Virus record (IMG/VR): IMGVR_UViG_3300025668_000018
Location: 1-43,010 of that record
Length of the DNA stretch: 43,010 bases
Strand: one strand, 5' to 3'
DNA from: a virus
Each line of letters begins with the position of its first letter. Position 1 is the first letter of the stretch. The notes under the pieces are model-generated. The model saw only the letters and a program-made list of their open reading frames with translations, did not search any database and was not told the DNA's origin. This document shows, in pieces, positions 19,901 to 34,103 of the stretch. The translations under genes were made by a program, and so were the position numbers.

Positions 19901-22900
19901 GGATCGTCTTTCTTCGGTCTACTATTCAACAGATTGACATCTGCTTCATATCCTAATGTTATTCTTGATAATATTTCTGAGTCTCAAGTAAATATTGTTG
20001 ATTTTACTGATAACACTACGAACTTTGATGCTAAATTCCCTGGAACTGAGTTTATTAGTAATTTAGTTATTCCTTATGACAATGCTACAGGCACATTCCA
20101 AGAAAACGAAATCATTCGTAACTACAAACTTGGATATGGTAATGTAACAGGGGTCTTCAATTCTTCCGAGAATATGATTACCAAAAAACTTGCTTTTGAT
20201 AGTAGAGTCGGGTCTGGATTCTTCCAACTTGGACAAGTCATTAGAACTCAAGATACTAAAGGTGAGGTTATTGGATACAATCAAGCACTTTCCACAATCT
20301 ATCTGGGTAAAGTAGGTAGAACTCTTTCTACTGGCGAAGATTACCATCAGGTTACTTTTGCGAACAATGCTCAATTAGATACAGATCAAAGTCATTATGG
20401 ATTAAGTTCTTTGCTACTTGATGGCACTGGAGATTATCTGTCTATCCCGACTTCTGCTGAATTTGGTTTTGGTGCAGGTGCATTCACAATCGAATGCTGG
20501 ATTCGTCCTTCTAGTGTTACAGGAACACAGCAAATCTTCGATTTTAGGACGACTGCTGTCGAAGTTTCTTCCGAACTACTACTTGTAGGCACAAATCTTA
20601 ATTATAGAGTTAATAATTCCACTACAATTACTGGAACAGCAACTCTTGCCGTAGATACTTGGTATCATGTTGCTATCTCAAGAAATGCTGCCACAACAAA
20701 GTTATTTGTTAATGGAACACAGGATGGTGGAGATTATTCTGATGGTAGTAACTATGGAAGCACTAAACCAATCATCATAGGTGCCTCCTATGCCTTTGGA
20801 GACGGTTTCGCTGGTCATATCGATGAGTTCAGAGTATCTAACACTTCGCGCTATCAGACGACATTTACTGCCCCTACAGGAATCTTCCAGGGTGATGCTA
20901 ATACTAAGTTACTGCTTCACTTCGAGGGTGCTGATACTCAAACATATGTTGAGGATTGGTCTGGTGGAGAGTCGTTTACAGACAACGAAGACTTCAACAA
21001 CGATGCCATTCTTAAGAACTGGAATGAAAATTCCACAAATCTTCCTGCTGGATTCGCAGGTAAGTCACAACGATATTATGATGCTGCTAACTTAATCGAA
21101 TCCAACAAAGACTTTGTTGCTAAAGAAGCAGTTTACTTACTGACTCAGCAGTATCCATCACTTGTAATTCCTGGTGGTAACGTAAATTGCGAAGATGATG
21201 TTCGCGATATCCTAACTGCTTTGATTGAGGATATGCGTAATGGATGTAATAGTCATATCTGGGATGCTTCGGCATTGTATGTTAATAGAACTGTTAATCC
21301 TATTACAATTAGTCATGTTGATACGGAAGTTGTAGAAACTGTCTGGGCTTATGATAAAGTCAAAGATATTCTTCAATATATCATCAATAATACTCTTTGG
21401 TCTGTTTCTGGCAGTCATGGCGTAAGACAAATCACTGATACCACAATTACTGATTCTTCTACAGGATCCTTTACCACAATTCAACCATCAGCAATTTCTT
21501 ATAATGCTGCTACTGGTGATATGGTCATGACATCGAACAGTCATGGATTAACGACAGCAAATACAATCGCTATTGCTGCAGAGTCACTGACATTCACATG
21601 CACGAGTGATGGTAATGAAAGAGAATTGATTCATCCTCGTAAGAGTGATACTAGAGCATATAATCAAGTTCTTGCAATCACTGCAGCAGATACTAATACA
21701 TTTACAGTAAATGTTGGTGCATCTCCAGCAGAGCAACAATATGTTCATACATTTGTAAGTGCAACTTCTAATGCTGTCACAGTCCTTGATTACACTACAG
21801 GTGATTGTGCCGATGTCTATTCCACGATTGGCAATCTCTTAGATATCCTTACGGATACACTTGAGCAAGCAAATCTGGGCAGTCCTGTAGACCACTTAGC
21901 AACTATCACTAAAGTAACTACTAATTATGAGTTCGTTGGTGCTACTGTTAATGCATATCTTGAAGTTCCGTTTAGCACCACATATCACAGTGCTGCTTCG
22001 GATATCTTATATACCAATAGAATTGACACTTCTGCTCGTGGAAGATTCCGTGATGCTTCAAATCTTATCAATGCAAACGCTTCGGTTATTGTTGATAAAG
22101 CAGCATTTGATATGCTTTCTAGATATCCAGATCTTGCTATTGACATGCCTAGAAACGCCGCTGGCGGTAGCACTGACGGAACTCTTCGTTGTAAGACTGA
22201 CTTAGGTTTAATCTTAGGAGCAATCGCGAAAGATATCTATGATGGAGGAAACTTCTTTACTGTCCAAGCTGCTAGGTTCTATATTGGTGAAAATGACGAA
22301 CTCAGACATATCCGTTTGCAAGTATGGCAGTCTGTATATGCTCATGATAGACTTGCATACTATGCTAAGCAAGCAGTTACGGGTGATCTGACATACGATA
22401 ACACCGACAATATTATCGTTGGTGACTGGGGTATTACTAATGACGCAGGAAACTGTGCAAATGTTCAATCTGCTATCGATACATTAGTTACTACCATCAA
22501 TGATATTATCGCTCCAACTAGCGAAGACTTCAATATTGCTGGCGATAGACTATACTTCAACCGCGAATATATTGCCGAAGAAATTACAGGTCTTACTGCA
22601 GCATATTTGACATATCAAGTTGATAACGCAAATCAAGTAGCGTATACATACGACACTGCTAAGTGTGAGCGTGATATTAAGTTACTGATTACTGCAATTA
22701 TCTCCGACCTACAGACAGGTGGTAATAATAGTACAGTTGATAACATGGGTCTGTACCTAACTGCTAACGGAGAACTGAATTATGTAGAAGAAGAACTTCT
22801 TCCTACAGTATTTGCATTCGAGCAGATTAGAACTCTTGGAGAAAAGGCAATCAGAAATCTCCTGTATGATGCAGGTGCAACTGTATCTGGTCAGCAATAT

Positions 22901-25900
22901 TCTGCTATTTACAGTGATAATACTGCATATAGAGATAGCGAAACTCCAACCGATATCGACCAAGCAGTTTGGAGACTTCGTGACCTAATTGATATTGTCA
23001 TTAATGGTCTCGCACCTGCAGGCAATGGAGTTAGAAATGCTGCCAAGAACTTCTACTTCAACCTCAAGTATTATAAGGATGAAATTGGAGCACAGATTGA
23101 TAGTCAGTTTGGTTCTGGTTCTTGGGTATATGATTCATTCCTTGAAGAAACTGCAAATAATATTGCAGCAGATAGTATCACAACAGATGTAAGTGCCTCA
23201 AATACCACTGTTGCTTATGAAATATCACTTTCTGGCATCATTGGAGACTTTGTAGCAGGAGAAACAGTAACATCCAGCAATGGTAGTACTGCGACTGTGC
23301 TTGAGTTTGATAAAGATAATCAGACAATTTATGTGGGACCCTTCTCATCCACTGCTTGGGCGGTTACTAATACTCTATCGGGTGGAAGTAGTTCAGCAAC
23401 AGCAACTATTGCTGCAGCATATGGATCTGTAGCATTTGATGGAACTGGTGACTATCTACAGACTGCTGCTGGTATTGCACTTGGAACTGGCAACTTTACC
23501 CTTGAGGGATGGATTCGTCGTACTGATACAAACAGCAACTTCTATCTATCTGGATCAACTGATAATAACTTCGGGTTCTTTGTAGGAACAGGTTCTTCTA
23601 ATGTCGGTTTCTACGGTGGAAGTAGTGGTAACTTTATTAATCTAACTAACACCACACTTACTGTTTCTGGGGGTAGATGGTATCACATTGCTGTTGTGAG
23701 AGAAGGAGTTGGTGCTAACCAAACTTCAATCTATATTGATGGTATTCTGCAAGGTAGTGGAACTGTTGCAACTAACTATGGTTCTACCACATTCGTTGTA
23801 GGTGCTAGTACATCTAGTACAGAATATGCAAATGGAAACATTTCTGATTGGAGATTGTCCAGCGTTGCTGTTTATCCAAAAGGAAGTACAGCAATTGGAG
23901 AAAAACTCTTTGCACTTCCTACACGACCATTTATTGCAGCAGACGTTACTGAAACCGAACTTATCTTGTGTCAAGGTAATACGATTCAAGATAATGGACC
24001 TAATAGTGTCTCAGTAACTGCTAACGGAAATGCTGCTGCTACTACAACTTCTCCCTTTGGATATTTCCCTGGTGTTTCCAACTCCTTTGATTGGTATATC
24101 TATCCTACCAATGTTGAGATTCTTTCTCAAGCAAGAGCAATTAGTTCTCCAGTCACAGGAGAAGTTAGTAGCGCAAATCTCTGGACTAATCCAGAAAATC
24201 TAAATTCGTCAAATTACACTTCTAACTTAGTTAATTATTTCTCTAATGTTACAAGTGCTCCTGATGGAACAGAAACTGCTGAAAAACTTTATGCTACAGG
24301 CACTGGAGTACATTCACTAACTAGAGATTTTAATCTAACTTCATATGAAACCTTTGACAATTCAACTGTAACATTTGATAGTGGTACTGAAACATTCGAT
24401 ACTGGATTTGGTGGTATTACTGAGCAGCAGACATTTACTCTGTCGGCATTCTTCAAGAAAGCAGAACTCGATAGTCTCAACTTCAAACTTTCTTTGGATA
24501 ATCAGTCGAAGAATATTAACTTCAATGTCAACCTTTCCACAGGTCAAGTTGATACAGGAACATTGTTTGTAAGTCCTGGTATTACTCTTAACGAGTATGG
24601 GGTAACACCAGTTGGTGGTGATTGGTTCCGTGTATACTCAACAATTACCTTCGGTTTTGGTATTGATAATCTTCAAAGTGACTTTGCTATCTACAATCGT
24701 TCATCTGTTGCTGCTTCTGGAAATCAAGGTTTCTATCTCTGGGGTATTAAACTCAACGCTGGTTTCCTTGATCCTTATACTGCTGGGTCTGGTAAGTTGT
24801 TCTATTCAAATACCGAATATAACATTAAGACATATGCGTTAGATCTTCTAAGAGAGTATATGGTTGCTTCAATTTCTAATGAACTTGTTGTTCCTTCCCC
24901 CATTGCTGCTGTAGGTTCTTTCTACCAGGATCCAACATCAGCAGCAGCTCTTGCTAATGGAAATTACAGCAATGAAAGCATCAGTAGATTGATTCGTTAT
25001 GGCACTAGCACAATTAAAAATCAGTTCATTAATGATGCATACTATACAAACCTCACTCAATATAATGCAGTAACTTTCGGTTCTAAAAACTACGGTGATA
25101 GAGATATTCCTGTAGGAATTACTGGAGGACTAAATTCTTCCGATTATTTCTATGGTCTGAGTTCCGATTCAAATGCCGAACTTGCAAATCTCACTATCAA
25201 TGAAGGTTTGATTGCTAAAGTTTACAGGAGATTCCGTATAGACGGCGATATTACTGATGGTCCATTCACCATGAATGAAGTTGTCGCTAAGCAGGGTGCT
25301 CCTAGTATTACTGGTGTAGTTTATGGATTCTATGAAGATGAGAACTTCAAGTATCTCGATGTCGAAGTTACTGCTGGTCCTTGGGCAGTTACAGACTTCA
25401 TTGTTGGAGCGGCAAACTCAACAACGGCACAAATCAGTGCAATCGAAGATCGTATTCACATTATCGATCTTAAAGGTGACTTTGTTCAGGATATTGAATT
25501 CCTTGGTTATACTTCTGGAGCAGTTGCTCAACCCACTTCATTCATCAAAGCAGAAGCATCCGTTACTTCTAATACTGGAGGTCTTCTGACAGTTGATACT
25601 GAGAGTTTGGTAGGCACTTTTGAGAAAAACTCGGTAGTCTATCCAGAATCGTCCAGACAGTATATTGATGTAAGTCAAATTTCTGGTCTTCAGGTATCGG
25701 TTGGTGATCGTATTGCATCTGATGGATATATCAGGTTGGGTGTCTCAGTCATCTCAACTTCTAATGTATTCATTGTTGGAAATAGGATTTATAAGGTTGT
25801 TAACAATCTTCAAGATAGCACCGTATATGGTGTTATCACCGAAGTAGATCTTGCTAACAATTACATCTACATCACAATGGTTCAAGGAGAATTCCAAAAT

Positions 25901-27067
25901 GGTGATTACATTGGAGATTATGGAGTCGATATTTTCCCTCAAGGATTCGCGACAATCAATACAAAGGTTGTTACTCCTGGAGCAGCCGCTGCTAGAGTTC
26001 AAGACATCAGAACAGCAGGATTGAGTAAGAGAATCTATCTTACAGATATTGCTGGAGCATTCTCTAGTAAAGATGCCATTATCGGAACTTCTGCATATAA
26101 GGCAGTTATCACCGATATTGTAGACCTTAAAGCTCGCGTGAAGAGATCCTCCAAAGGATTTGATGGTACACAAACTACCTTCTCTCTCACTATTGAAAAT
26201 GGAACTTCATATCTGCCCGACCCAGAGGGACATATGATGATTTTTGTCAACGGCATTCTTCAACCTCCTGGAGCAACTAACGCATATACAGCGTTCTCCG
26301 ACCAAATTCAATTCGCTGAGGCACCAGAACTTGGGTCCTCGTTTACTGGATTCTATATTGGTAAGTTGAGACAGTTGGATGATATCTCGTTTGAATTTGA
26401 TTCATTACGTCAGTCATTTAACCTCAAGCGTAACGAGGTATTCTACTCACTCACGCTGACAGAAGGTGTTCAATCTACTGTGATTAGACCTGAAAATAAT
26501 ATCATTGTTTCTCTCAATGGTGTTGTTCAGGAACCTGGAGTTGGTTTTGAGATTGTTGGTTCGCGAATCATCTTCTCTGAAATTCCTCGCGTAGATTCTA
26601 CATTCGTCGCGTTCTCTTATGTTGGTTCTGAAGCAGACGTTGATGCTGCTGAAGTAGTTCCACCAATCGAAACAGGAGATTTCATCGAAATTGAGGGTGA
26701 AACTGAGGATCGTGAGGTCGCGGTTATCGAATCGTCCAACTCACTCATCACCTTCGATTATCTTGGATCAGTCTTTGGTCAAGGTGCTATCGGACAATCT
26801 GCACTCACAAGTGGATTTATTAGTACTGTTCAGGTTACTTCTGGAGGTTCTGGTTATACAAGCAGACCTACAGTTAGAATCGATTCTATCTCTGGTTTCG
26901 ATGGTAACATCCGTGCATTGGTTGGTATTTCTAGTGTTGAATTGAATAGTTATGGTTCTGGATATCAGAATCCAGTTATCATTGTTGAGAGTGAAGTTCC
27001 TGATGATTGGACCGCACCAAATCTCGCAGATTATGGTGAGGAATTAATTGATCCAGAGATTGCATAA
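7937..27067 (+). CDS. Giant multidomain virion protein (6376 aa), baseplate/fibre-like
   Basis: A single unbroken 19.1-kb frame. The order by approximate residue is as follows. 1-60: conserved start (PLFNKFIEYYYQSQEKTG). 300-590: seven GGxGY repeats. 655-740: helical region (IKDFYSAKGTSFSIAYLFK). 1128-1352: six more GGxGY repeats. 1425-1550: YHYH-like domain (GWAFDGNPIYGPYGY, TPEYPNGRYCYF). 1610-1621: an EF-hand-like loop (DENRDGVISAEE). 1843-2211: seven propeller-like blades. 2215-2432, 4145-4340 and 5162-5378: three LamG-like domains. 3015-3250: more GGxGY repeats. 4380-5070: three helical repeats. 5412-5620: a carbohydrate-binding-like module. C-terminus: two LNGVxQ modules and two GGxGY repeats. 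Its position after gp6 is that of T4 gp7, but homology to gp7 is not shown. LamG-like and propeller folds suggest glycan binding on the host surface (inference). It shares the gp25-gp6 late transcript. Confidence 0.85.
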   Translation: MDINKVSHVSSYQTPQFIESEYPLFNKFIEYYYQSQEKTGLGQNIVNNFLQYLNIDKLDISILDGATRVVEPVGVSDTTITVETVDPFLEKDGSVLIGDEVIYYEETVSSPNIALTPGISYTQVQLKWVLLANNISLFDGTRTVFPLVSQDNPIGPSSPQHLIVKVYGRTLTPVVDYNISGTNIVYTTAPRVATASDDISTTSVTYLNGFSENTIVQVDDISSAFGDNKTSFELTVNNQKYEPIADEFLLAVYDNRLLVPKVDYFTDGSIFVFNVPPLNGRSLSLYSIEAPIPSFGSGAVGYARVNDFGNISSVIPSANGSGYRFDYPPKVSVNSSVGSGASVKTLVDGIKSVSLLSGGAGYSESNPPTVKVQFPTKEGYVEPTLKATVTNGAVSAIDIVSSGSGYTFTPRITFEQPGGAILATPTIVNGSVSGAITITSGGQGYTTPPLVYIDEPTGVDGIKASFTTTLTDGEITTVNILNAGQGYETVPRISVIDPVGAQVLETKVDGDGRVISVELLFGGNGYTDVPSVYIVDNRQNDVGTYIGGTGATAVAAIFNGQITDINITNFGTGYSADNPPQIVIQKPVDAKASATVGLQEITGFSVLKSGKEYTKAQFLGCARAASGITNYTQDGNAVFSNNTVAAAAPTDASVKCLDALFVKRLLDKYTEQFLPDVPTLDYSKIDVRTSIKTIKDFYSAKGTSFSIAYLFKLLYGETVTVSYPKDQIIKPSAATWSVDTVLRATLVSGLPENIQDGLLCQVADISDPNILAATALIENFISIQTAQDTIYELALSEETIQGTFIVPYKTKLAEPLNTTEGIITVDSTIGWPERNGEFVISTGVGSEVVQYKEKSLNQFIECTRSVNGVVEDWDSATQVSSNFNVFINKGTAQEVVLNIVGIVDAQQTTLTDTGSYYLPGDKLLISKLGGTGTGPELTTWLYNVKKLIEVGTITFGGINNQSATVTCNNPHGLLVGDQVTIYGANPIIYNGSFLVTSRDSTTVFQYQLPQPANVVPQGNILVSIDLNKGKSDSSAVNNAISPYTTNVQNTFFNTTNTYIASTGIPNYNIGPFPGSALLPGNQRKLNRFPINPVTISTKNLIVPGPIGTWVNGVSIWSYKSDVTKIFGAVTSVDITNAGSGYDAAFPPAITISGGEGTGAAASATVNGSISEVTVTAGGSGYTSSPLVSIVGGGGSGASATAIITKGVVSSILVNSGGTGYTSQPSITVVGGGGSGAEGTAAVRGPIQSVTITNGGSSYTSNPSIILSSGTGAVAQAIVNDGRIISIAIISAGSGYTTAPEVTIQGEGFGAVARATIDVDGENAGKVTGIEIINRGIGYSQGTTIINLNSVGQGATFAANVFQWTYNLQETTTVDAAKGSVFEGFNNQYGGEYAHLSNPQRLRYILGDNLFVNVSGQILEQDDQLAHSPIIGWAFDGNPIYGPYGYSDPTNQSSSIARLGTSYRLKTNLVYDVITNPNPVRTAGPLLTDEIAGKFVEDYEYSFSLGDLDQYNGRFCKTPEYPNGRYCYFVTIDATEAGNPVFPYILGPSFNSVVDVWNLSTSAVQQNIPIGVVRYRDPYENVDIDVERAPNASTNGLTLENGDLLTFDVEDENRDGVISAEETADPDQIFEESPLQLFDYFPKVKLDSKVDIEVETITKFEDASITGFVVENSGINYQVDDRLIFDNTDTGGDGASARISRIKGETVSGYTFENVSGENFGVLTTNVPHNLQLDDSVFVDYTPIMDNTNKTFVVRQYKGIEDIVITQSGSGYNEDIPPTLVIDGDGISGDLQAIVTSVGSIDTVNILNSGSGYTSNPRVIISHPQVFKKAEYIVSKIENNENVKVNDIFVNESKEIFICGKTLDSSGNVVAFVSKLSTTGVKEWEKTLELTSGTNYAEFQKLYVDGDDIWVVGVNRPNILVLDAYNPDIILVKYTQSSNGLSATLQFQKGYSGISGSTRADNVTCIKKYSDTRYVIGGYTNTNSGSPFDAFIALIDTAGSFAIKRKIASVDDSEKLTDIVVDDGNIYFTLETSNTSSDNNVNVAFGKAIVGTNAIEVEYINEYSNAGYSFLDSSLAIDEFKELYITSTLRAKSDNVTRDSVWVGKVNTAGSFVWNYRYLAPGRDVNAVGKCAVDIFGDLNIAFNRVDNTTGLKTVDTVKIGYDGVVKNHTTNEFNENRIEGITAHSIDVDNSGDVYVFGQTSWNRNEFLLEFTGGATTDTFGNYTPTFVGADATQSLHLDGGVAKIYGRDIATPANWENAYIEFPNNTLGNTLNENWTLEFMLYQDSASTDTHSQDQQTLVAIGDATDATGGLWLYYDRTAAGPSGYLELVVTNNTTSINSAGGAVQSTLTTMFADDTWQFIGLKKEGNVFTVYVNGISVITATVADTSFTSKKLYIGNIAGRNGTTGNWRKDEQGQYFVDNLKLRNRAINPTVPSDVSVLPTNGAFGLSYSWTDTAWFSTYNNVHDYIDYSGWGVKVDKDADSARIGDQGIQLVTQLGYVRTAVTPVTGSTLTIGSTGFALGSLGLQSLDFDDATTVMTQDTETLTYTKDIWSSRTATIPSPGSQKLIISAVVKDRYYFKVTNTVKIDNVQILTVNQAFRFTVGTKLVLNDDSGSFVNSGYITKVDTDNNKVYLAVNNNSWTDDLNTGQLSTTQFSEQSTYGIVGPIPLDINQIDSYTFAQVDNTTPGTFTIDLDKYNLDGTYNAAGGQNLDSFAKFKPYSDDDYAVRIDEISGSSTFIVGSVVTINGGDISYNAAYSTATITNLTGVLKITLVANLTKILRVTAVANSDEVYVITDTRHYLTPGSMLNVDGNPSETVNTVVYDEYDGSFPVDTVISPLEFTYKLPQAAVTSPASSSGNVSIYVKSPVLKMYYGHQYLFDLSHSSMLGGNLSFSKDPLYKLEYSFNSIERVGTPGVTGQGATTPTVKFKVDEGIVTNISYYFDPSRVGDNDSPIIQGSYLDVVTSPYKGTFQVSGVAGATITRGADQIKFPLINEPEGNADVSRASYSTSSRRAVGSIDSIRIVNPGGFYTRLPIVDSIQSTRQIERVSITEPGTEYAVGQYTGVAIAGDGEGGFVTITVADGTDSEGSPIPGQVQSVLVTSPGKGYTTATVDIDSVPGILGAGLTGSGAEVTVVIPPFGTAASIFTVGSSVGKIKKLKNNNFGYDYPHDYTLRPEITFPINAQLTSTSILDSVTITDPGSGYSQAPAVIITGGGGTGAIAQSTIKNGRLDRIEVKDPGLGYSSTPSVELKSSFNYVVNLDLGLLQFSFPHGIAQGSEITLNVVDTGDGADFPIAAGAVGRLNGLTTYYAISGAANSLEDDQLKFAITPANAALGDALSFTNAGTGRQQVLTTSFGGAATANVITSTFLEGEQVYQGSSFENATALGFVSTNNGWQVGPRIVKIVDYTGDFNIGESITGVISKSSGTISSLNIATGVLDVGSITETSGQFIDDVGKPSEIIQKIQDSYYYQDFSYAVKSAVSINEWKDILIKNVHPASFKVFGELNLNEYGFVPNKETFFQLTKSVELARQATVPNIQSFALVEPVYSAFDNTEVLFRQKRLTSSENILTSVVQRLDDISNLFDGERISFPLQIDGSNVVANANQLMIILNGVVQTPDTSFEVQNDSIVFSEPPQPPASVKYVNVTIQPIQVYKFTITNNSGIFPSTNNTVLGTQSGSRLTVTSVVGDDIFGFVAEGNVGIVTALNNATLTSGAGYTDGTYSDVATTSSGVGTGLTVNITVASGAVTQASINSVGVGYASSEVITITGGTTSATIAVSTVSGFNINELISVGATGFTATLTEITPIVNLNLFSFNEQIKNLTGKIAVVEEVNLETGDSVPLADLRYTIGAGTSTVEVIDSAALTDTAVPASVFSVDANYQLGAEIVTVSAITVGPNSTTLTVLRGQLGTTATSHQEDLPLYGTDISITNELALSKTVGTYQSKPGLFDIRLDDVIIGSQSGVVARITSTSAYQDPTTNEFIEQVNISDGSSFFGLLFNRLTSASYPNVILDNISESQVNIVDFTDNTTNFDAKFPGTEFISNLVIPYDNATGTFQENEIIRNYKLGYGNVTGVFNSSENMITKKLAFDSRVGSGFFQLGQVIRTQDTKGEVIGYNQALSTIYLGKVGRTLSTGEDYHQVTFANNAQLDTDQSHYGLSSLLLDGTGDYLSIPTSAEFGFGAGAFTIECWIRPSSVTGTQQIFDFRTTAVEVSSELLLVGTNLNYRVNNSTTITGTATLAVDTWYHVAISRNAATTKLFVNGTQDGGDYSDGSNYGSTKPIIIGASYAFGDGFAGHIDEFRVSNTSRYQTTFTAPTGIFQGDANTKLLLHFEGADTQTYVEDWSGGESFTDNEDFNNDAILKNWNENSTNLPAGFAGKSQRYYDAANLIESNKDFVAKEAVYLLTQQYPSLVIPGGNVNCEDDVRDILTALIEDMRNGCNSHIWDASALYVNRTVNPITISHVDTEVVETVWAYDKVKDILQYIINNTLWSVSGSHGVRQITDTTITDSSTGSFTTIQPSAISYNAATGDMVMTSNSHGLTTANTIAIAAESLTFTCTSDGNERELIHPRKSDTRAYNQVLAITAADTNTFTVNVGASPAEQQYVHTFVSATSNAVTVLDYTTGDCADVYSTIGNLLDILTDTLEQANLGSPVDHLATITKVTTNYEFVGATVNAYLEVPFSTTYHSAASDILYTNRIDTSARGRFRDASNLINANASVIVDKAAFDMLSRYPDLAIDMPRNAAGGSTDGTLRCKTDLGLILGAIAKDIYDGGNFFTVQAARFYIGENDELRHIRLQVWQSVYAHDRLAYYAKQAVTGDLTYDNTDNIIVGDWGITNDAGNCANVQSAIDTLVTTINDIIAPTSEDFNIAGDRLYFNREYIAEEITGLTAAYLTYQVDNANQVAYTYDTAKCERDIKLLITAIISDLQTGGNNSTVDNMGLYLTANGELNYVEEELLPTVFAFEQIRTLGEKAIRNLLYDAGATVSGQQYSAIYSDNTAYRDSETPTDIDQAVWRLRDLIDIVINGLAPAGNGVRNAAKNFYFNLKYYKDEIGAQIDSQFGSGSWVYDSFLEETANNIAADSITTDVSASNTTVAYEISLSGIIGDFVAGETVTSSNGSTATVLEFDKDNQTIYVGPFSSTAWAVTNTLSGGSSSATATIAAAYGSVAFDGTGDYLQTAAGIALGTGNFTLEGWIRRTDTNSNFYLSGSTDNNFGFFVGTGSSNVGFYGGSSGNFINLTNTTLTVSGGRWYHIAVVREGVGANQTSIYIDGILQGSGTVATNYGSTTFVVGASTSSTEYANGNISDWRLSSVAVYPKGSTAIGEKLFALPTRPFIAADVTETELILCQGNTIQDNGPNSVSVTANGNAAATTTSPFGYFPGVSNSFDWYIYPTNVEILSQARAISSPVTGEVSSANLWTNPENLNSSNYTSNLVNYFSNVTSAPDGTETAEKLYATGTGVHSLTRDFNLTSYETFDNSTVTFDSGTETFDTGFGGITEQQTFTLSAFFKKAELDSLNFKLSLDNQSKNINFNVNLSTGQVDTGTLFVSPGITLNEYGVTPVGGDWFRVYSTITFGFGIDNLQSDFAIYNRSSVAASGNQGFYLWGIKLNAGFLDPYTAGSGKLFYSNTEYNIKTYALDLLREYMVASISNELVVPSPIAAVGSFYQDPTSAAALANGNYSNESISRLIRYGTSTIKNQFINDAYYTNLTQYNAVTFGSKNYGDRDIPVGITGGLNSSDYFYGLSSDSNAELANLTINEGLIAKVYRRFRIDGDITDGPFTMNEVVAKQGAPSITGVVYGFYEDENFKYLDVEVTAGPWAVTDFIVGAANSTTAQISAIEDRIHIIDLKGDFVQDIEFLGYTSGAVAQPTSFIKAEASVTSNTGGLLTVDTESLVGTFEKNSVVYPESSRQYIDVSQISGLQVSVGDRIASDGYIRLGVSVISTSNVFIVGNRIYKVVNNLQDSTVYGVITEVDLANNYIYITMVQGEFQNGDYIGDYGVDIFPQGFATINTKVVTPGAAAARVQDIRTAGLSKRIYLTDIAGAFSSKDAIIGTSAYKAVITDIVDLKARVKRSSKGFDGTQTTFSLTIENGTSYLPDPEGHMMIFVNGILQPPGATNAYTAFSDQIQFAEAPELGSSFTGFYIGKLRQLDDISFEFDSLRQSFNLKRNEVFYSLTLTEGVQSTVIRPENNIIVSLNGVVQEPGVGFEIVGSRIIFSEIPRVDSTFVAFSYVGSEADVDAAEVVPPIETGDFIEIEGETEDREVAVIESSNSLITFDYLGSVFGQGAIGQSALTSGFISTVQVTSGGSGYTSRPTVRIDSISGFDGNIRALVGISSVELNSYGSGYQNPVIIVESEVPDDWTAPNLADYGEELIDPEIA
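8840..9705 (+). repeat. GGxGY protein-repeat block 1 in the giant gene
   Basis: Seven imperfect repeats of about 35-45 residues, each with a Gly-rich turn ending in GY (NGSGY, GGAGY, SGSGY, GGQGY, AGQGY, GGNGY, FGTGY), then a Pro, then short beta strands and a NGxI/V strand. The regular strand-turn spacing suggests a beta-solenoid or string of small beta units. The repeats are coding and diverged at the DNA level. Confidence 0.75.
11320..11990 (+). repeat. GGxGY protein-repeat block 2 in the giant gene
   Basis: Six repeats, the most regular of the gene. GGSGYTSSP and GGTGYTSQP lie 39 residues apart and the next GGSSYTS is 38 further on, with GGGGSGA turns midway between. The register shows a unit of about 38-39 residues. 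The same unit appears in the 853-, 510- (gp8) and 1405-residue proteins of this window. Confidence 0.78.
16980..17690 (+). repeat. GGxGY protein-repeat block 3 in the giant gene
   Basis: Five more diverged copies, recognisable by NPGGFY, EPGTEY, SPGKGY, DPGSGY and DPGLGY, again with a GGGGTGA turn between the last two. Here the two residues before the turn are usually a residue plus Pro, a sub-type distinct from the SGG/AGG copies of blocks 1 and 2. Confidence 0.68.
21073..23150 (+). repeat. Three tandem copies of a helical module in the giant gene
   Basis: Residues of about 4380-5070 contain three related units. Each has an 'LI-x-x-N-x-x-x-V/I' helix, then a Cys-x-x-Asp helix (NCEDDVRDIL, RCKTDLGLIL, KCERDIKLLI), an Asn/Gly-rich turn, an A/G-x-LY or RFY segment, then a V-x-A-x-(D/E) helix (VWAYDKVKD, VYAHDRLAY, VFAFEQIRT). 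The rest of the protein is mostly beta, so this is a helical island. It lies between the second and third LamG-like domains. Confidence 0.65.
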
Positions 27068-27089: not shown

Positions 27090-28310
27090 ATGGCTAAACA
27101 AGCACTAAACCTTGGAGCTTCTGCTAATGACAATACGGGGGATACCCTCCGTATTGGTGGTGATAAAATTAATGATAATTTTAACGAACTATATACCGCT
27201 TTAGGTAATGGAGTAAGTTTAACTGTTAATACATTGAACCCCGTTGCAGGACAGGTTCTTCGTTATAATGGATCTACTTTCCTGCCTTCAGATTATAGTA
27301 ATCTTACATCTGCTTTAGATGTAAATGGAAACTCAATTATTTCATCCAGCGATGGTAATATTCCTGTCGCTGCAAACGGTACTGGTGTTATTACATTAGC
27401 ATCCAACTCGATTACTTCGACATTTGGTGCTAATGTTGACATTCCTACAATCGTAAAGTATAAAAACGAATATGCAACTTTAGGAGATGCTCCTGCTGCA
27501 GCATCCTATCCTGGTTACTTTTTTACTGTAGACGGTACTGATGACCCGTATGTAAACATTAATATCACTGCTGGGGGTCTTGGTGATGTTAGAGCAAAAC
27601 TTCTCACTGAGTATTCAAGTATTGATGATTTGAGTAATGTTGATGTCACAACAGCAGCACCAACAGCAAATCAAGTTCTTAAGTGGGATGGTTCTAATTG
27701 GATTCCTGGAGATGACCAAGCAGGTGTAAGTGCTATTAATGTTTTCCAGACTGTCACTGCAGATTCGGGAACTACTACTGCAAACAGTCAAACAGACACT
27801 CTTACTATTGCTGGTGGTACTAATATTACTACAGCAGTTGTTGGTGATACTTTAACTGTAAACTTCAGTGGCACTCTTACTACTACTTTAGCAGCATTAA
27901 CTGATACTGATACTGCTGGTCTTACTCAGGGCGATATGCTCTATTGGAATGGTTCTAATTGGATACCAACTCGCAGTCCAATGCTTTGGTATGAAATTGG
28001 AGCACCTCCAGGAAATAATTCCAATTACTATACAATAGCAGGACCTGGATCATCTATCGCTACTCAAAATCCCACTATCTATGTTCATAGAGGATTCACA
28101 TATGCCTTCGATAATAGTGTCGAAGGTGGTGGTCATCCTTTTAGAATTCAATCTACTCAAGGACTGACGGGCACTCCGTATACTGATGGACAGAGTGGAA
28201 GTATAACCAATGTTCTTTATTGGACAATTCCAATGGATGCACCGAATACACTGTATTATCAGTGTACTCTCCATTCATTGATGCAAGGCACCTTTACCGT
28301 CGTAAACTGA
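27090..28310 (+). CDS. Fibre-like structural protein with C-terminal cupredoxin-like domain (406 aa)
   Basis: The N-terminus has the motif NLGASANDNTGDTLRIGGDK and then INDNFNELYTAL, common at the start of phage tail and fibre proteins. Three short units with the pattern 'L-[YW]-[ND]-G-S-x-[FW]-x-P' follow (LRYNGSTFLP, LKWDGSNWIP, LYWNGSNWIP). The last 90 residues look like a cupredoxin: strands YVHRGFTYAFDN and GGGHPFRIQST, then LYYQCTLHSLMQGTFTVVN. His349, Cys392, His395 and Met398 fit the four type-1 copper ligands, and the Cys-x2-His-x2-Met spacing is that of amicyanin. Whether copper is bound is not known; the domain may be used as a stable beta sandwich. The gene ends with TGA, three bases before the next ATG. 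Confidence 0.83.
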   Translation: MAKQALNLGASANDNTGDTLRIGGDKINDNFNELYTALGNGVSLTVNTLNPVAGQVLRYNGSTFLPSDYSNLTSALDVNGNSIISSSDGNIPVAANGTGVITLASNSITSTFGANVDIPTIVKYKNEYATLGDAPAAASYPGYFFTVDGTDDPYVNINITAGGLGDVRAKLLTEYSSIDDLSNVDVTTAAPTANQVLKWDGSNWIPGDDQAGVSAINVFQTVTADSGTTTANSQTDTLTIAGGTNITTAVVGDTLTVNFSGTLTTTLAALTDTDTAGLTQGDMLYWNGSNWIPTRSPMLWYEIGAPPGNNSNYYTIAGPGSSIATQNPTIYVHRGFTYAFDNSVEGGGHPFRIQSTQGLTGTPYTDGQSGSITNVLYWTIPMDAPNTLYYQCTLHSLMQGTFTVVN

Positions 28311-28313
28311 TAA

Positions 28314-31300
28314 ATGACAAGAACCGTACCTGGATCAGGAGCGCAAATTAATCCGATCTTCGATGAAGTTTTTGGTGTTCGCGCTGTAGAATTAATTAGT
28401 GGTGGAACTGGATACGATCCTGCCGACCCTCCAAGATTAACCATCGATGGTTGCGGCACTCCTGCTCAAGAAGCACTGCTATATCCAATCATTGATAAAG
28501 ATTCGGGTAGAATTGTTCACGTTCGTGTTCTTCAAAGGGGTAGCGGGTATGATCCTCTAAGACTTAAAATTGTTCCCACGTCTGAAACACCAAATGTTTT
28601 AGACTCTTTTGATGTTAATAGAATCTGGCAAAATCATCCAAATTCATTGACAAGAGGCACCTTCCAGACTTCTGGTACACCTCCTGTTAAGAATGATAGA
28701 CTTCGTATTGAGTCTGATAATAATCCTAAACCTACTTGGATATTAGAAGAGGCACAACCTGGAGGTTCTGGAAATATTGTAGACAGATCTTTTGACCAAG
28801 TTTTTATATATCGTGGTGGTAAAGATGTTCCTTATGAAGGAACTAGAAGTTTTCAAAATAATAAATCTTTAGGAATTCTGGCAAACGGTGGTTTATTACA
28901 TACTCCAGAATGGGGTACTTTTGGCAATGCACCAACAAACTTTTCTATTGATACTGTAAAATATGATTATGTTAAAAATACTGACGCTAATGATGTAATT
29001 CTTGACAATTCGATTCATTACTATCAGACTAGTAAATTAATTAATGAATTTGATAATCATAACGGCGTATTTCAGTGGGGGTCTTTAGAGCAGTTTGTTT
29101 GGAATATTAAGGTAGAGTTTAATAATGTCATGCTTTTCGTCGATAATGTAGACGAAACTCTAAATCCAATTGAAATTGGTAGGACGATAAATGAAGTAGG
29201 CGGTTCTTCTTCGGGAGAGATTGCAAAAATTGTCAGAAATGCTCAGAACCAGATTGTTAGAATTTATTTAAGAGATGTTATAGGGACTTTTGAGACAACT
29301 GATTTTATTTTAGGATCTACGGGATTCACATTTAGAATTAATGGCGACCCGATTCTATTCCCCAATGGTCTCTTCTATATTGATTTTGGTGTTGATGCTC
29401 ATGAGTTTGGTTCATTTATTCCTGGAGTGTATTATCTCGCCCCAGAAAATATTAAAGTTCAAAGAAACTATCTGATTATTTGGAATCAAACTGATGCGAC
29501 AAATCAACCGTCAGCACAGCACGCTCAAGGTCATCCAATGCAATTCAGTACGACCCAAGATGGTCTTCTGAATAACGGAACTTTATATTACAATAGTACA
29601 GGCGCATCTTCTGCACCTGCAGTAGATTATGAAGATGAGTTTAACCCACTCTTCATTATGAATGCAGATGAAAATAATCGCATTTATTATTACTGCAAAG
29701 TTCATCGTTATATGTCAGGATATGAAGGTGATGAAGGATACATGTATCTAGATCCTGCTATTGAAGAGGAAGAGGAACATGCAAATAACTACTATTATAA
29801 GAATTATTATCAAACCGATTCAAACGATCCAAACACTATTGATAGATCTCGTCATGTAGATGGTCACTCAAAAGTCCTTGGTATGTCTTTTGATGGATAT
29901 CCTATTTACGGACCATTTGGATATACTACTGGCAGGACTGTCGGCAGAATGACGAGTTCGTTTAGATTTAAAACTACTGCTGAACTTTCTGGTACTAGAG
30001 AGGAGGTTGTAACTGCGAGCACTGTAACATATGCTGTTACTATTTCAAATTCTAAATTTTATTTTAACGGACAAGAACAAGAATTACTGAATCTGAAAAG
30101 AGGGAAAACTTATATCTTCAATCAAGATGATGCTAGCAATACTGCTAATGGCAACTTCTTGATGTTCTCCTTGACTGAAGATGGTTGGCACGATACAGGA
30201 AGTTCACTTGATATTGGAACAACTTCATATCTATATGATGCTTCAGGTTTAGTTGAATATTATTTGGATGGAGTTCTAACACCATATGCCACATATTTGG
30301 GCGGTTTTGCTAGTGCGACGACAAGAGAAGTTCGTATTACTATTCCTGTAAATTCACCTAGGGTTGTTTATACTTTCTCATATTCAAATTCTGGTTATGG
30401 ATCTCGTCTTGTTAATGAAGGATATATTCTTGGTGATTTGACTCAGGACTATATCTACGATTCTTCTGTAGGCAATCTTGACCAATATAATGGTAAGTAC
30501 GTTGTTACCCCAGAATATCCGAATGGTACTTATGCATATTTCATGACAGAGGATAGTAGTGGGAATCCCGTTTATCCATATGCGATTGGTCCCCAGTACT
30601 ATGGAACACCTATATTTGAAGGTGATGCTATTCCCGAACAAGTATCAGTTTTCCCAACTGAAGCAGAAGGTGATATTGTCCTTAATACTGATGGGACGGT
30701 ATCTTATATTAAGATGACTAAAAACGGTGATAACTTCTTCGGTACAGCAAAAGCAGTTATTCTTGGGGGCGAAGGAACTGGTGCTGCAGCAACTCCTGTC
30801 ACTCAAACTATTACTGGTCTATCGTTGTTAAACGAAGGTAGAAGTTATGCAACACCACCAAACCTTATCTTTGAAGGAGGTGGTGGACAAGATGCTGAAG
30901 GTGCAGCATCAATTGATACTCTCGGTAAAGTTACGTCAATTAATGTTGTTGATGGTGGTGAATTCTATCAGACAGAACCATATATTCTTTTGACTGGTGG
31001 TGGTGGACTTGGCGCAAAGGCAGAAGCAGTTATTAGTCAAGGTGCTATTACTGGTATCAATATTACTGATCCTGGAAAAGGATATACCTCTCCACCAAAT
31101 ATTGTCTTCACTAGACTTGTAAATCTTAAGCGTAAAACCAGATCTCGTCAGGCATTTAACTCCTCTGATATTTACTTGACAGGTCTGACTAAAGCACTCA
31201 GTTCTAGTGATACTACAGTTTATGTTTCTTCTACAGATGCATATCCAGGATCTGGTTCTCTCATAATCGATAAAGAAACTATCTCATATACTTCTAAAAG

Positions 31301-32531
31301 TAGAGGTAGATTTACTGGAATTACTAGAGGTGTTAATTTTAAATATGACCAAAGAGTTATATTAGACGACGGGCAGAATGATGCTAATGGAGATTCCAAC
31401 TATAAGTTTAATGTTGGTGATAGAGTAATTCGTAGGGTTGAGAGTGCTAATAATAAAATTGCTAAAGTATATGATTGGGATCCTAGCACTAGAGAACTTT
31501 TAGTTACGTTTGAAGTAGACGAACTTGCATTCATTGATGCTGGAATCCCTTCAACTACTGATGCTATCGTTCAGTTTGATGCTGGTGTTGCAAATAGTAG
31601 TGGAACAGGTGTTCTTCCACATACAATTATTAATGCGGTTGGTAGTAGCATATCTACTTTAACCGTACCAATTGGAGCACTTGTAGATAAAGCGTTTGAG
31701 GATAATGATGAAAATGAAGATCCTTTGAATCCAGGAACATTCTTAGGAGATGGTATTGCAGATTTAATTAATACTGCTACAGATTATGCAAGTCAAATCA
31801 GTCTAGATGGTGGCATTTTCGATTCATTGTATGGTATTGAAGAGACTCAAGGTGGTCAAAATACTACATTACTTCAAGTTGGAGATAATATCAAAGACGC
31901 AGATATACCATTCAAATATGCCACAATTACTTCTGCAGGTGGATTGAGTGATGGTGTTGAACACCCTGTTCTTTTGACACTGACGTTGGATGCTTCTAAT
32001 GGTAACGGTCAAAACTACAGTACAAATGAAGTTGTAACTGGTGCTATCTCAGGTATTCAAGGAACGGTAGTATCTTGGGATATTACTTCATCAAAATTAG
32101 TATTGAAGGATATTGTTCCTTTCAATACAAATAATGTTAATATTGGTGTAAATGGATATCTGTACGAGTTCTCAAGTAACAGTACAGTTGTTGATATTGT
32201 TGTCGTGAATAACGGAACAAACTATACCGCAGTTCCAAATATTGTTATTGAAAGCACGGGTGATATTCAAGCAACTGGTACTGCTGTTATGTCAACATCT
32301 GGTGACCGAGTAGATTCTATAACCATTTCAAATGGAGGTTATGGAATCCCTCAAACAGTTGACAATAGTTATAATCTACACCCAACAATCACATTTACAA
32401 ATACTGGTGGTGATATCACTGGTTCTGGTGCAGCAGCTCAGGCAGTTTTGGGTGGAGAAAATGTGACTGGTAATGGCGGAGCGAGTTATCGTATCAAATC
32501 TATTGAATACTCTACATTAGTTCGCTCGTAA
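28314..32531 (+). CDS. Large structural protein with cupredoxin-like and YHYH-like domains (1405 aa)
   Basis: The order is: two GGxGY-type repeats (GGTGYDP, RGSGYDP) near residues 28-80; a GExITG-like unit around 280-345; a cupredoxin-like domain around 372-480 with His407, Cys461, His464 and Met467 as candidate copper ligands (GHPMQF and YYYCKVHRYMSG); and a YHYH-like domain starting at FDGYPIYGPFGY (about 525). That domain is interrupted by about 130 residues of a second cupredoxin-like unit without metal ligands, then resumes at LDQYNGKYVVTPEYPNG (about 723). GGxGY repeats follow (about 840-930), then a module with ITRGVNFKYDQ (about 955-1020), another GExITG unit near 1240, and final GGxGY-like repeats. 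It has no T4 counterpart known to me. It is probably a fibre or baseplate appendage cotranscribed with the 406-residue gene. Confidence 0.83.
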   Translation: MTRTVPGSGAQINPIFDEVFGVRAVELISGGTGYDPADPPRLTIDGCGTPAQEALLYPIIDKDSGRIVHVRVLQRGSGYDPLRLKIVPTSETPNVLDSFDVNRIWQNHPNSLTRGTFQTSGTPPVKNDRLRIESDNNPKPTWILEEAQPGGSGNIVDRSFDQVFIYRGGKDVPYEGTRSFQNNKSLGILANGGLLHTPEWGTFGNAPTNFSIDTVKYDYVKNTDANDVILDNSIHYYQTSKLINEFDNHNGVFQWGSLEQFVWNIKVEFNNVMLFVDNVDETLNPIEIGRTINEVGGSSSGEIAKIVRNAQNQIVRIYLRDVIGTFETTDFILGSTGFTFRINGDPILFPNGLFYIDFGVDAHEFGSFIPGVYYLAPENIKVQRNYLIIWNQTDATNQPSAQHAQGHPMQFSTTQDGLLNNGTLYYNSTGASSAPAVDYEDEFNPLFIMNADENNRIYYYCKVHRYMSGYEGDEGYMYLDPAIEEEEEHANNYYYKNYYQTDSNDPNTIDRSRHVDGHSKVLGMSFDGYPIYGPFGYTTGRTVGRMTSSFRFKTTAELSGTREEVVTASTVTYAVTISNSKFYFNGQEQELLNLKRGKTYIFNQDDASNTANGNFLMFSLTEDGWHDTGSSLDIGTTSYLYDASGLVEYYLDGVLTPYATYLGGFASATTREVRITIPVNSPRVVYTFSYSNSGYGSRLVNEGYILGDLTQDYIYDSSVGNLDQYNGKYVVTPEYPNGTYAYFMTEDSSGNPVYPYAIGPQYYGTPIFEGDAIPEQVSVFPTEAEGDIVLNTDGTVSYIKMTKNGDNFFGTAKAVILGGEGTGAAATPVTQTITGLSLLNEGRSYATPPNLIFEGGGGQDAEGAASIDTLGKVTSINVVDGGEFYQTEPYILLTGGGGLGAKAEAVISQGAITGINITDPGKGYTSPPNIVFTRLVNLKRKTRSRQAFNSSDIYLTGLTKALSSSDTTVYVSSTDAYPGSGSLIIDKETISYTSKSRGRFTGITRGVNFKYDQRVILDDGQNDANGDSNYKFNVGDRVIRRVESANNKIAKVYDWDPSTRELLVTFEVDELAFIDAGIPSTTDAIVQFDAGVANSSGTGVLPHTIINAVGSSISTLTVPIGALVDKAFEDNDENEDPLNPGTFLGDGIADLINTATDYASQISLDGGIFDSLYGIEETQGGQNTTLLQVGDNIKDADIPFKYATITSAGGLSDGVEHPVLLTLTLDASNGNGQNYSTNEVVTGAISGIQGTVVSWDITSSKLVLKDIVPFNTNNVNIGVNGYLYEFSSNSTVVDIVVVNNGTNYTAVPNIVIESTGDIQATGTAVMSTSGDRVDSITISNGGYGIPQTVDNSYNLHPTITFTNTGGDITGSGAAAQAVLGGENVTGNGGASYRIKSIEYSTLVRS

Positions 32532-32535
32532 CCTT

Positions 32536-32543
32536 CATAAATA
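32536..32543 (+). promoter_or_regulatory. T4-type late promoter (CATAAATA) for gp8 operon
   Basis: CATAAATA at 32536-32543, followed by AAC, stands in the short gap between the 1405-residue gene and gp8, 27 bp before the gp8 ATG. It is identical in the core to the elements at 27063 and 41799. Confidence 0.68.
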
Positions 32544-32570
32544 AACAAGAGGACAATAATCCCTTAGGAA

Positions 32571-34103
32571 ATGGCAGCTCTATTAACTGATCAATTTAGG
32601 ATTTTCTCAGCGAGAAAGTTCATTAAGGCATTGGAAGGACCCGATGCCACTCAGAGTGATGATGTAGCAGGTACAACGAGAGATCGTTTATACCTGTTCA
32701 TTGGTCGTCCTCAAACTTGGGATAATGAAAATTCTCCTCCTCAAGCAGTAGATTCCTTTGAGGAATTTTCTGGTTCTTATGATGACATGATCTCTTTGAA
32801 GCGCGTCCTCGCTTCAGATACTGTTCAGGTTGTTCGTCGTATTGACTGGGTTTCTCCAGAACAAACTACAGGTGGACTTGGTTTCACCTATGACATGTAT
32901 CGTCATGATTATTCTCCTAGCAAGACTGCTTCTTCTGGTGCTACCAAACTTTATGACTCAGATTTTTATGTTGTAAACTCACAATATCAAGTTTACAAGG
33001 TAATCTATAACGGCACATCTCCTTCGGATCCTAACGGCAAACCCTCTACAGTTGAACCTACAGGTTCTTCTACTAGTATTATCACTACAGGTGATGGATA
33101 CCGTTGGAAGTACATGTATACAATTCCCGTTGCCTCAGTCCTTAAGTTTTTCTCCAATGATTACATGCCCGTCTTTACAAATGACGCGGTAAGAACCAAT
33201 GCGGTTGCTGGAGAAATTGATACCGTAGTCATTAGTTCTGCAGGTTCTGGATATAACAACGGCACTTATGACAACGTTGCCATTAACGGCGACGGTACTG
33301 GCGGTAGAGTTTCTATTGTTATTGATGGTGGTAGAATTATTTCTGCTACTGTAACTTCTGGTGGTACTGGATATACATTCGGTAAAATCAGTATTGATTC
33401 TATTACTGGTATTGGTACTGGTGCTAGTGGTATTGTTGATGTTATTATGCCTCCTCCTGGTGGGCATGGTTCTGATTCTGTTGTAGAACTTGGTGCATTC
33501 CGAGTCATGGTTAATGCTAAACTTTCTTATGATGAAGGTGCTGGAGATTTTCCAATCGATAACGACTACCGTCGTATTGGTCTTGTTACCAATCCTCTGA
33601 AGTTTGGTACGGAAGAACTCATTTCAGACTTGACAGTTTCTGCTGCTAAAGCAGTCATCTTCTCTCCTACATTCCAAGGCAACTATGTTCCTGATGAAAT
33701 TGTTACTCAAACAAGAGTTGTTGGTGGTGTAAGTATCACTGGTCGTGGCAGAGTGATTTCATGGAATCCTACTACTAAAGTATTGAAGTACTATCAGAAC
33801 TCAATTGATGGTATTTTCCCTGAAGTTACAGGCACGCAAAACGAACTTGACGGTTCTAATGTTATTAGTGGGGCAACTTCTGGTGCCGCTGGGCAACCAG
33901 ATGTAAACTTCCCTGCTGTTCCTAACTCATCTTCTAGAACAATTAATAATACAGAATATGATTTAGGTATGAAGTTTAACAATGGTTATGGAAAACCCGA
34001 AATCAAATCAAACAGCGGTAATGTTGTTTACATAGATAATAGACGGGCAATCAGTCGTGCAAACGACCAGGTAGAAGACATCAAAATCGTAATCGAATTC
34101 TAA
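32571..34103 (+). CDS. 8: Baseplate wedge subunit gp8, expanded with repeat modules
   Basis: The N-terminal part is gp8-like: FRIFSARKFIKALEG, an RLYLFIGRPQTWDNENSPP segment, MISLKRVLASDTVQVVRRIDW, and YDSDFYVVNSQYQVYKVIYN followed by GDGYRWKYMYTIP, a series conserved in cyanophage gp8. At 510 residues it is clearly longer than T4 gp8 (334). Much of the extra length is repeat modules: two GGxGY units around residues 214-300 (SAGSGYNNG, SGGTGYTFG) and a GExITG-type unit around 367-410 (YVPDEIVTQ ... GRVISWNPTTKVLKY). After the first insert the gp8-like sequence resumes (FPIDNDYRRIGLVTNPLKFG). In T4, gp8 dimers link the wedge components. Its TAA overlaps the next ATG by one base. Confidence 0.9.
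   Translation: MAALLTDQFRIFSARKFIKALEGPDATQSDDVAGTTRDRLYLFIGRPQTWDNENSPPQAVDSFEEFSGSYDDMISLKRVLASDTVQVVRRIDWVSPEQTTGGLGFTYDMYRHDYSPSKTASSGATKLYDSDFYVVNSQYQVYKVIYNGTSPSDPNGKPSTVEPTGSSTSIITTGDGYRWKYMYTIPVASVLKFFSNDYMPVFTNDAVRTNAVAGEIDTVVISSAGSGYNNGTYDNVAINGDGTGGRVSIVIDGGRIISATVTSGGTGYTFGKISIDSITGIGTGASGIVDVIMPPPGGHGSDSVVELGAFRVMVNAKLSYDEGAGDFPIDNDYRRIGLVTNPLKFGTEELISDLTVSAAKAVIFSPTFQGNYVPDEIVTQTRVVGGVSITGRGRVISWNPTTKVLKYYQNSIDGIFPEVTGTQNELDGSNVISGATSGAAGQPDVNFPAVPNSSSRTINNTEYDLGMKFNNGYGKPEIKSNSGNVVYIDNRRAISRANDQVEDIKIVIEF

Follow-up and report, generated by a model that had tools for sequence, protein, structure and literature searches.

The closest described counterparts of the domains considered here are amicyanin and plastocyanin (PF00127, Copper-bind), free electron carriers with the ligand order His ... 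Cys-x2-His-x2-Met, together with the N-terminal cupredoxin of Hyphomicrobium nitrite reductase (2dv6), an enzyme module, and rusticyanin, an acid-stable carrier. In a type-1 copper site, the three equatorial ligands are expected to be kept or lost jointly, and the axial ligand may be Met, Gln (as in the stellacyanin type), or another residue. Small blue copper proteins have 'HN' after the first His, and multicopper oxidases have HP at the T1 His. Few viruses of the ocean are as abundant as cyanomyoviruses, and copper there is a trace metal both scarce and toxic. A literature search for cupredoxins in cyanophages, tail fibers, or virions, which covered few subscription papers, found nothing relevant. 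The cupredoxin itself is a known domain; its setting in phage baseplate proteins, where it is both fused to and nested in a YHYH domain and where intact sites have been gained and lost repeatedly, is not described in the literature searched.

The window, i.e., the whole stretch of 43,010 nucleotides analyzed, derives from a T4-like marine cyanomyovirus, and positions 27090-34103 show 91-92% DNA identity to Prochlorococcus phage Syn33 and cyanophage S-RIM12. The two open reading frames (ORFs) under study, of 406 and 1405 aa, are borne out (Table 1). Full-length profile matches assign the larger and the smaller product to T4-like baseplate wedge families (phrog_708 and phrog_677; E 0 and 3.7e-197), in database records these genes are annotated either as hypothetical or as baseplate proteins, and most of the annotated cyanophage records compared share the order gp9 - large protein - gp8. 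The 406-aa protein resembles T4 gp9/gp10 in its N-terminal domain (PF07880, 8.7e-10; T4 gp10, 8.2e-6), although the match is limited to residues 3-57, near the N-terminus, and the cupredoxin C-terminus is unmatched. Both cupredoxin-bearing proteins are predicted by homology to be T4-like baseplate parts. To that extent, the description of the two as virion genes in an earlier, sequence-only reading is upheld: the resemblance to baseplate families stands, and the place in the virion follows by homology.

Table 1. Features of the baseplate region, in window coordinates
Feature	Coordinates	Strand	Basis and remarks
gp9 homologue, 406 aa	27090..28310	+	phrog_677, baseplate wedge tail fiber connector; PF07880 at N-terminus
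cupA, C-terminal cupredoxin domain of gp9 homologue, residues 301-406	27990..28307	+	model; ligands 71/71
cupA ligand His349	28134..28136	+	
cupA ligand Cys392	28263..28265	+	
cupA ligand His395	28272..28274	+	
cupA ligand Met398	28281..28283	+	
1405-aa baseplate wedge subunit carrying cupB, YHYH, and cupC	28314..32531	+	phrog_708
cupB, cupredoxin-like domain, residues 375-482 of 1405-aa protein	29436..29759	+	homologue profile; BLASTP chain; hhalign
His407, first ligand of cupB (GHPMQF)	29532..29534	+	84/84 invariant; 10 silent, 0 replacement changes
Cys461, ligand of cupB	29694..29696	+	84/84 invariant; 11 silent, 0 replacement changes
His464, ligand of cupB	29703..29705	+	84/84 invariant; 12 silent, 0 replacement changes
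Met467, putative axial ligand of cupB	29712..29714	+	84/84 invariant; Tyr in distant S-RIM4
YHYH N-terminal part (SRHVDGHSKVLGMSFDGYPIYGPFGY)	29790..29948	+	His518 84/84, His514 75/84
cupC, third cupredoxin-like domain, residues 567-706	30012..30431	+	VIA; Cys/His/Met ligands lost in this lineage
YHYH C-terminal part (DQYNGKYVVTPEYPNGTYAYFMTED)	30420..30623	+	PF14240 best stretch, residues 703-748
gp8 homologue (context)	32571..34103	+	phrog_438, PF09215

The sequence-only reading had assigned four ligands to each protein, with a longer interval between the first His and the Cys in the larger one, and both the residues (His407, Cys461, His464, and Met467 in the 1405-aa protein; His349, Cys392, His395, and Met398 in the 406-aa protein) and the spacings (54 vs 43 residues) are confirmed. 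The last three ligands of the larger protein are contained in YYYCKVHRYMSG, and a full set of the form His ... Cys-x(2-4)-His-x(2-4)-Met/Gln, in this order, is present in cupA and in cupB. The only Cys of the 406-aa protein is the ligand, as is one of the two in the 1405-aa protein. When the composition of each protein was shuffled 20,000 times, C-x2-H-x2-M arose in a fraction of 0.00015 for the 1405-aa protein and in none for the 406-aa protein.

Relatives were gathered for the most part by peptide patterns without any ligand residue and also through their similarity to phage records. None of the four ligands varies among the 84 distinct cupB-region sequences, where 80 of 440 well-occupied columns are invariant overall, or among the 71 distinct sequences of cupA (26 of 132 columns). 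The probability that four named columns are all invariant is ~0.001 per domain, and the conservation counts are not independent because the sequences share descent. On parsimony trees, the ligand codons underwent 33 synonymous and no non-synonymous changes in cupB, and 31 and none in cupA; over the whole regions, replacement and silent changes are of similar frequency (5631 vs 5411 in cupB; 1367 vs 1698 in cupA). The neighbors of the ligands are variable: the Pro after His407 is replaced by Gln, Ala, or Ser, and the residue preceding Cys461 by His or Phe. Among the loci scanned with the cupA profile, 220 of 221 full-length matches, many of them near-identical, were ligand-complete. Scans with alignment A6 used patterns that include ligand residues, and ligand conservation from these scans is excluded as evidence; the same caveat applies to part of an HCHM count of 323. 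A chance motif is rejected on the grounds of invariance, composition shuffles, silent-only codon changes, and column probability, and free variation of the ligands among close homologues is rejected by their invariance in both domains. The ligand sets of cupA and cupB are not due to chance, and the earlier argument for function is supported by the invariant ligands and the silent-only changes of their codons.

Regarding the fold, the AlphaFold model of cupA (pLDDT 84.1) finds its best VIA matches in the N-terminal cupredoxin of 2dv6 (Z 10.0) and in rusticyanin (Z 9.7), although identity is ~20% and the phage domain has no enzyme context. In profile–profile comparison, cupA and cupB align with the four ligands in register (E 1.3e-4 and 4.8e-5, single comparisons), and hhalign of cupB to cupA and to the third domain, cupC, likewise places the ligand slots in register. 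As to the structural superposition of the two domains raised in the earlier reading, cupA is a predicted cupredoxin, cupB aligns to it with its ligands in register, and the cupB half rests on homology. Furthermore, BLASTP relates a virion protein domain of S-TIM66 to cupB of S-CAM22 (5e-12), to cupC of the same S-CAM22 protein (9e-8), and to a cupA-like domain of the marine virus AG-345-E02 (1e-12), and another domain of this AG-345-E02 (Kyanoviridae) protein passes PF00127 (24.6 vs a cut-off of 21.2). In an alignment of 18 diverse phage domains (18-67% identity to the first domain), only five columns, H, G, C, H, and M, show no variation. The profile of these domains matches amicyanin (1.4e-5), Cu-nitrite reductase (5.5e-5), and plastocyanin (6e-5) in the PDB, with the ligands in register with amicyanin in the displayed alignments.

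A profile of cupB alone retrieved no cupredoxin from the PDB, its top matches being antibody chains, and the assignment of cupB to the cupredoxin fold therefore rests on its relatives by homology. The full 1405-aa protein gave no phmmer match in the PDB. At the PF00127 cut-off, cupB has no match and none of the gp9 domains reach it; the cut-off is reached by relatives at loci L234, L235, and L236. Searches with Foldseek and VIA on a model of residues 335-800 are chiefly a test of cupC, with little bearing on cupB. A weak match to the At5g54830-like domain (PF25489) occurs in 33 of 38 gp9 C-terminal domains (best 2.7e-4), although these matches lie under the curated cut-off. The same domain is also found in small or multidomain proteins of marine bacteria, i.e., Polaribacter, Bacteroidetes single cells, SAR324, and Planctomycetota (L240, L235, L236, L251, L254, and other loci), two of them at or above the PF00127 cut-off. 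In summary of the likeness to amicyanin and plastocyanin, the phage domains share the ligand order and the amicyanin-short loop; by contrast, they are parts of baseplate proteins, their first His is followed by Pro, the His-to-Cys spacing of cupB is long, and cupA and cupB fall below Pfam cut-offs.

The leading explanation, which falls a little short of being probable, is that residues 375-482 form a cupredoxin with a type-1-like copper site and serve a docking or rigid-face role on the baseplate. The putative site would comprise His407, Cys461, His464, and axial Met467 with an amicyanin-length C-x2-H-x2-M loop, in a domain akin to the one at the C-terminus of the neighboring gp9 protein. Since both proteins are T4-like baseplate homologues, the domains would most likely lie on the outer face of the baseplate, at the attachment of the tail fibre. 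Each site would bind one copper ion, taken up upon lysis or from seawater; the metal would lock the beta-sandwich and the ligand loop into a rigid face, and this face would mediate contact among baseplate, tail fibre, and host surface. The analysis shows the motif, its conservation, the homology, the predicted fold of cupA, the loss in cupC, and ligand-complete copies retained or inserted elsewhere; copper as the metal, the location in the particle, and docking rather than electron transfer are what we infer. In support are the silent-only invariance, the invariant columns of the 18-domain set, the PDB profile matches, the Z-scores of cupA, the PF00127 score of AG-345-E02, ligand variation of the kind expected for type-1 copper, and the complete sites in all full-length YHYH-bearing relatives examined but S-RIM4; counted against are the cupB-only profile without a PDB cupredoxin, the 'HP', not 'HN', after the first His, the shared descent of the sequences, and a redox role that accords with the same data. 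The conserved sites suggest that the baseplate tail tips of these viruses may hold copper.

The strongest rival to a docking role is a redox role, in which cupA and cupB would shuttle electrons or, together with the YHYH domain, form an oxidative tool acting on the host envelope or on an electron carrier at first contact; this is possible but rather unlikely. The ligand set is intact and of the electron-transfer type, and the axial residue varies as in known blue copper proteins. Thus, cupB of S-RIM4 (L232, ORF from 3903) retains His, Cys, and His with Tyr in place of the axial Met. In 12 contigs (L191, L188, L189, L179, L192, L176, L202, and others; gene after gp9), cupB is interrupted between its first His and its Cys by another entire cupredoxin domain, of the form His ... 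Cys-x2-His-x2-Gln; the inserted domain recalls the stellacyanin type, although the equivalence of its Gln to an axial ligand comes from alignment only. Moreover, the site adjoins a YHYH domain (PF14240; 59.1 bits vs a cut-off of 25, E 7.5e-16 for the whole protein) with the conserved His and the PIYGP motif, a distinct domain of the same 1405-aa protein that is predicted to be a metal-dependent tail hydrolase (PMC7824862), so that the protein may carry two metal sites. Against a redox role, no partner, substrate, or second copper centre was seen, and cyanophages encode plastocyanin separately, as petE (PMC3037559), so that the virion is unneeded for plastocyanin function.

The YHYH domain is split by cupC, which was absent from the sequence-only reading. 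The predicted fold of cupC matches rusticyanin (VIA Z 8.4; model residues 235-368), and the profile alignment shows Tyr, mostly Ser or Ala, and Gly here in the slots for Cys, His, and Met. Trp625-His626 of cupC stay conserved (84/84 and 83/84). In the cupredoxin domain of a tail fibre protein of RN05-S (L230, ORF from 3440, residues 168-276), the ligands are replaced as His to Phe, Cys to Ala, and His to Val, and the Met is kept. As cupC and the RN05-S domain persist without ligands, the fold does not need them, and a fold that requires the ligands is rejected. The same two domains bear on the improbable alternative that the ligand residues are kept, metal-free, for folding and packing of the beta-sandwich. 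Some cupredoxin-fold proteins indeed carry no copper; however, cupC keeps its predicted fold with the slots replaced, the RN05-S domain survives the loss of its His, Cys, and His, and conservation within the diverse 18-domain set is highest at the ligands. The variation of the ligands, i.e., of the axial residue alone in two groups and of His, Cys, and His jointly in RN05-S, as read from the alignments, is how sites following type-1 copper chemistry would be expected to vary.

The identity of the metal offers a further alternative, slightly less likely than a metal-free domain, namely a purely structural role for another metal (Zn2+) or for Cu(I). Phage tails elsewhere use structural metals, and Cys-His-His-Met sets can bind soft metals; nevertheless, the type and order of the ligands and the loop fit type-1 copper, and the profile matches are to blue copper proteins. 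Least likely of all, the virion might carry copper as cargo, for scavenging or for adsorption via host copper uptake by analogy with the iron 'Ferrojan horse', an idea with literature precedent, and several ligand-complete sites do lie in adjacent baseplate proteins.

A wider proposal, more tentative than the docking explanation for cupB itself, is that in T4-like marine cyanophages several type-1 copper centres are displayed on the outside of each baseplate wedge; repeatedly duplicated, inserted, and lost as modules, they would serve as redox or metal-dependent docking sites at first contact with the photosynthetic host. A complete site is confined to cupB in 150 of the full-length YHYH-bearing relatives examined and to the cupC slot in seven, which lack cupB; 11 have two sites, and S-RIM4 alone has no complete site. 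cupB is missing in ACG-2014d, S-SSM4, S-RIM14, and related contigs, where cupC keeps His ... Cys-x2-His-x2-Met, and an extra ligand-complete cupredoxin domain lies inside the YHYH domain of a 1520-aa homologue (L134:4687-4995). If type-1 copper is indeed bound, virions would hold a reservoir of copper that has gone unnoticed, adsorption could be affected by copper or by redox state, the large 'hypothetical' baseplate proteins would gain a role, and their relatives would offer a series of natural gains and losses of copper sites.

Several minor observations concern proteins around or related to this locus. In cyanophages without cupB (L015 and L016), an extra ORF of ~590 aa with a YHYH motif and no C-x2-H-x2-M lies directly upstream of gp9. 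In the window, the giant upstream ORF 7937-27067 (6376 aa) contains a YHYH domain at residues ~1363-1534 (PF14240, 3.4e-31), and its residues ~2862-2943 (MYYGHQYLFDLSHSSML) show a weak likeness to a ligand-less cupredoxin. Finally, an 1118-aa ORF of AG-345-E02 (L234, from 4785) encodes a structural protein that combines two ligand-complete cupredoxin domains with a peptidase S74 tail-fibre chaperone domain.
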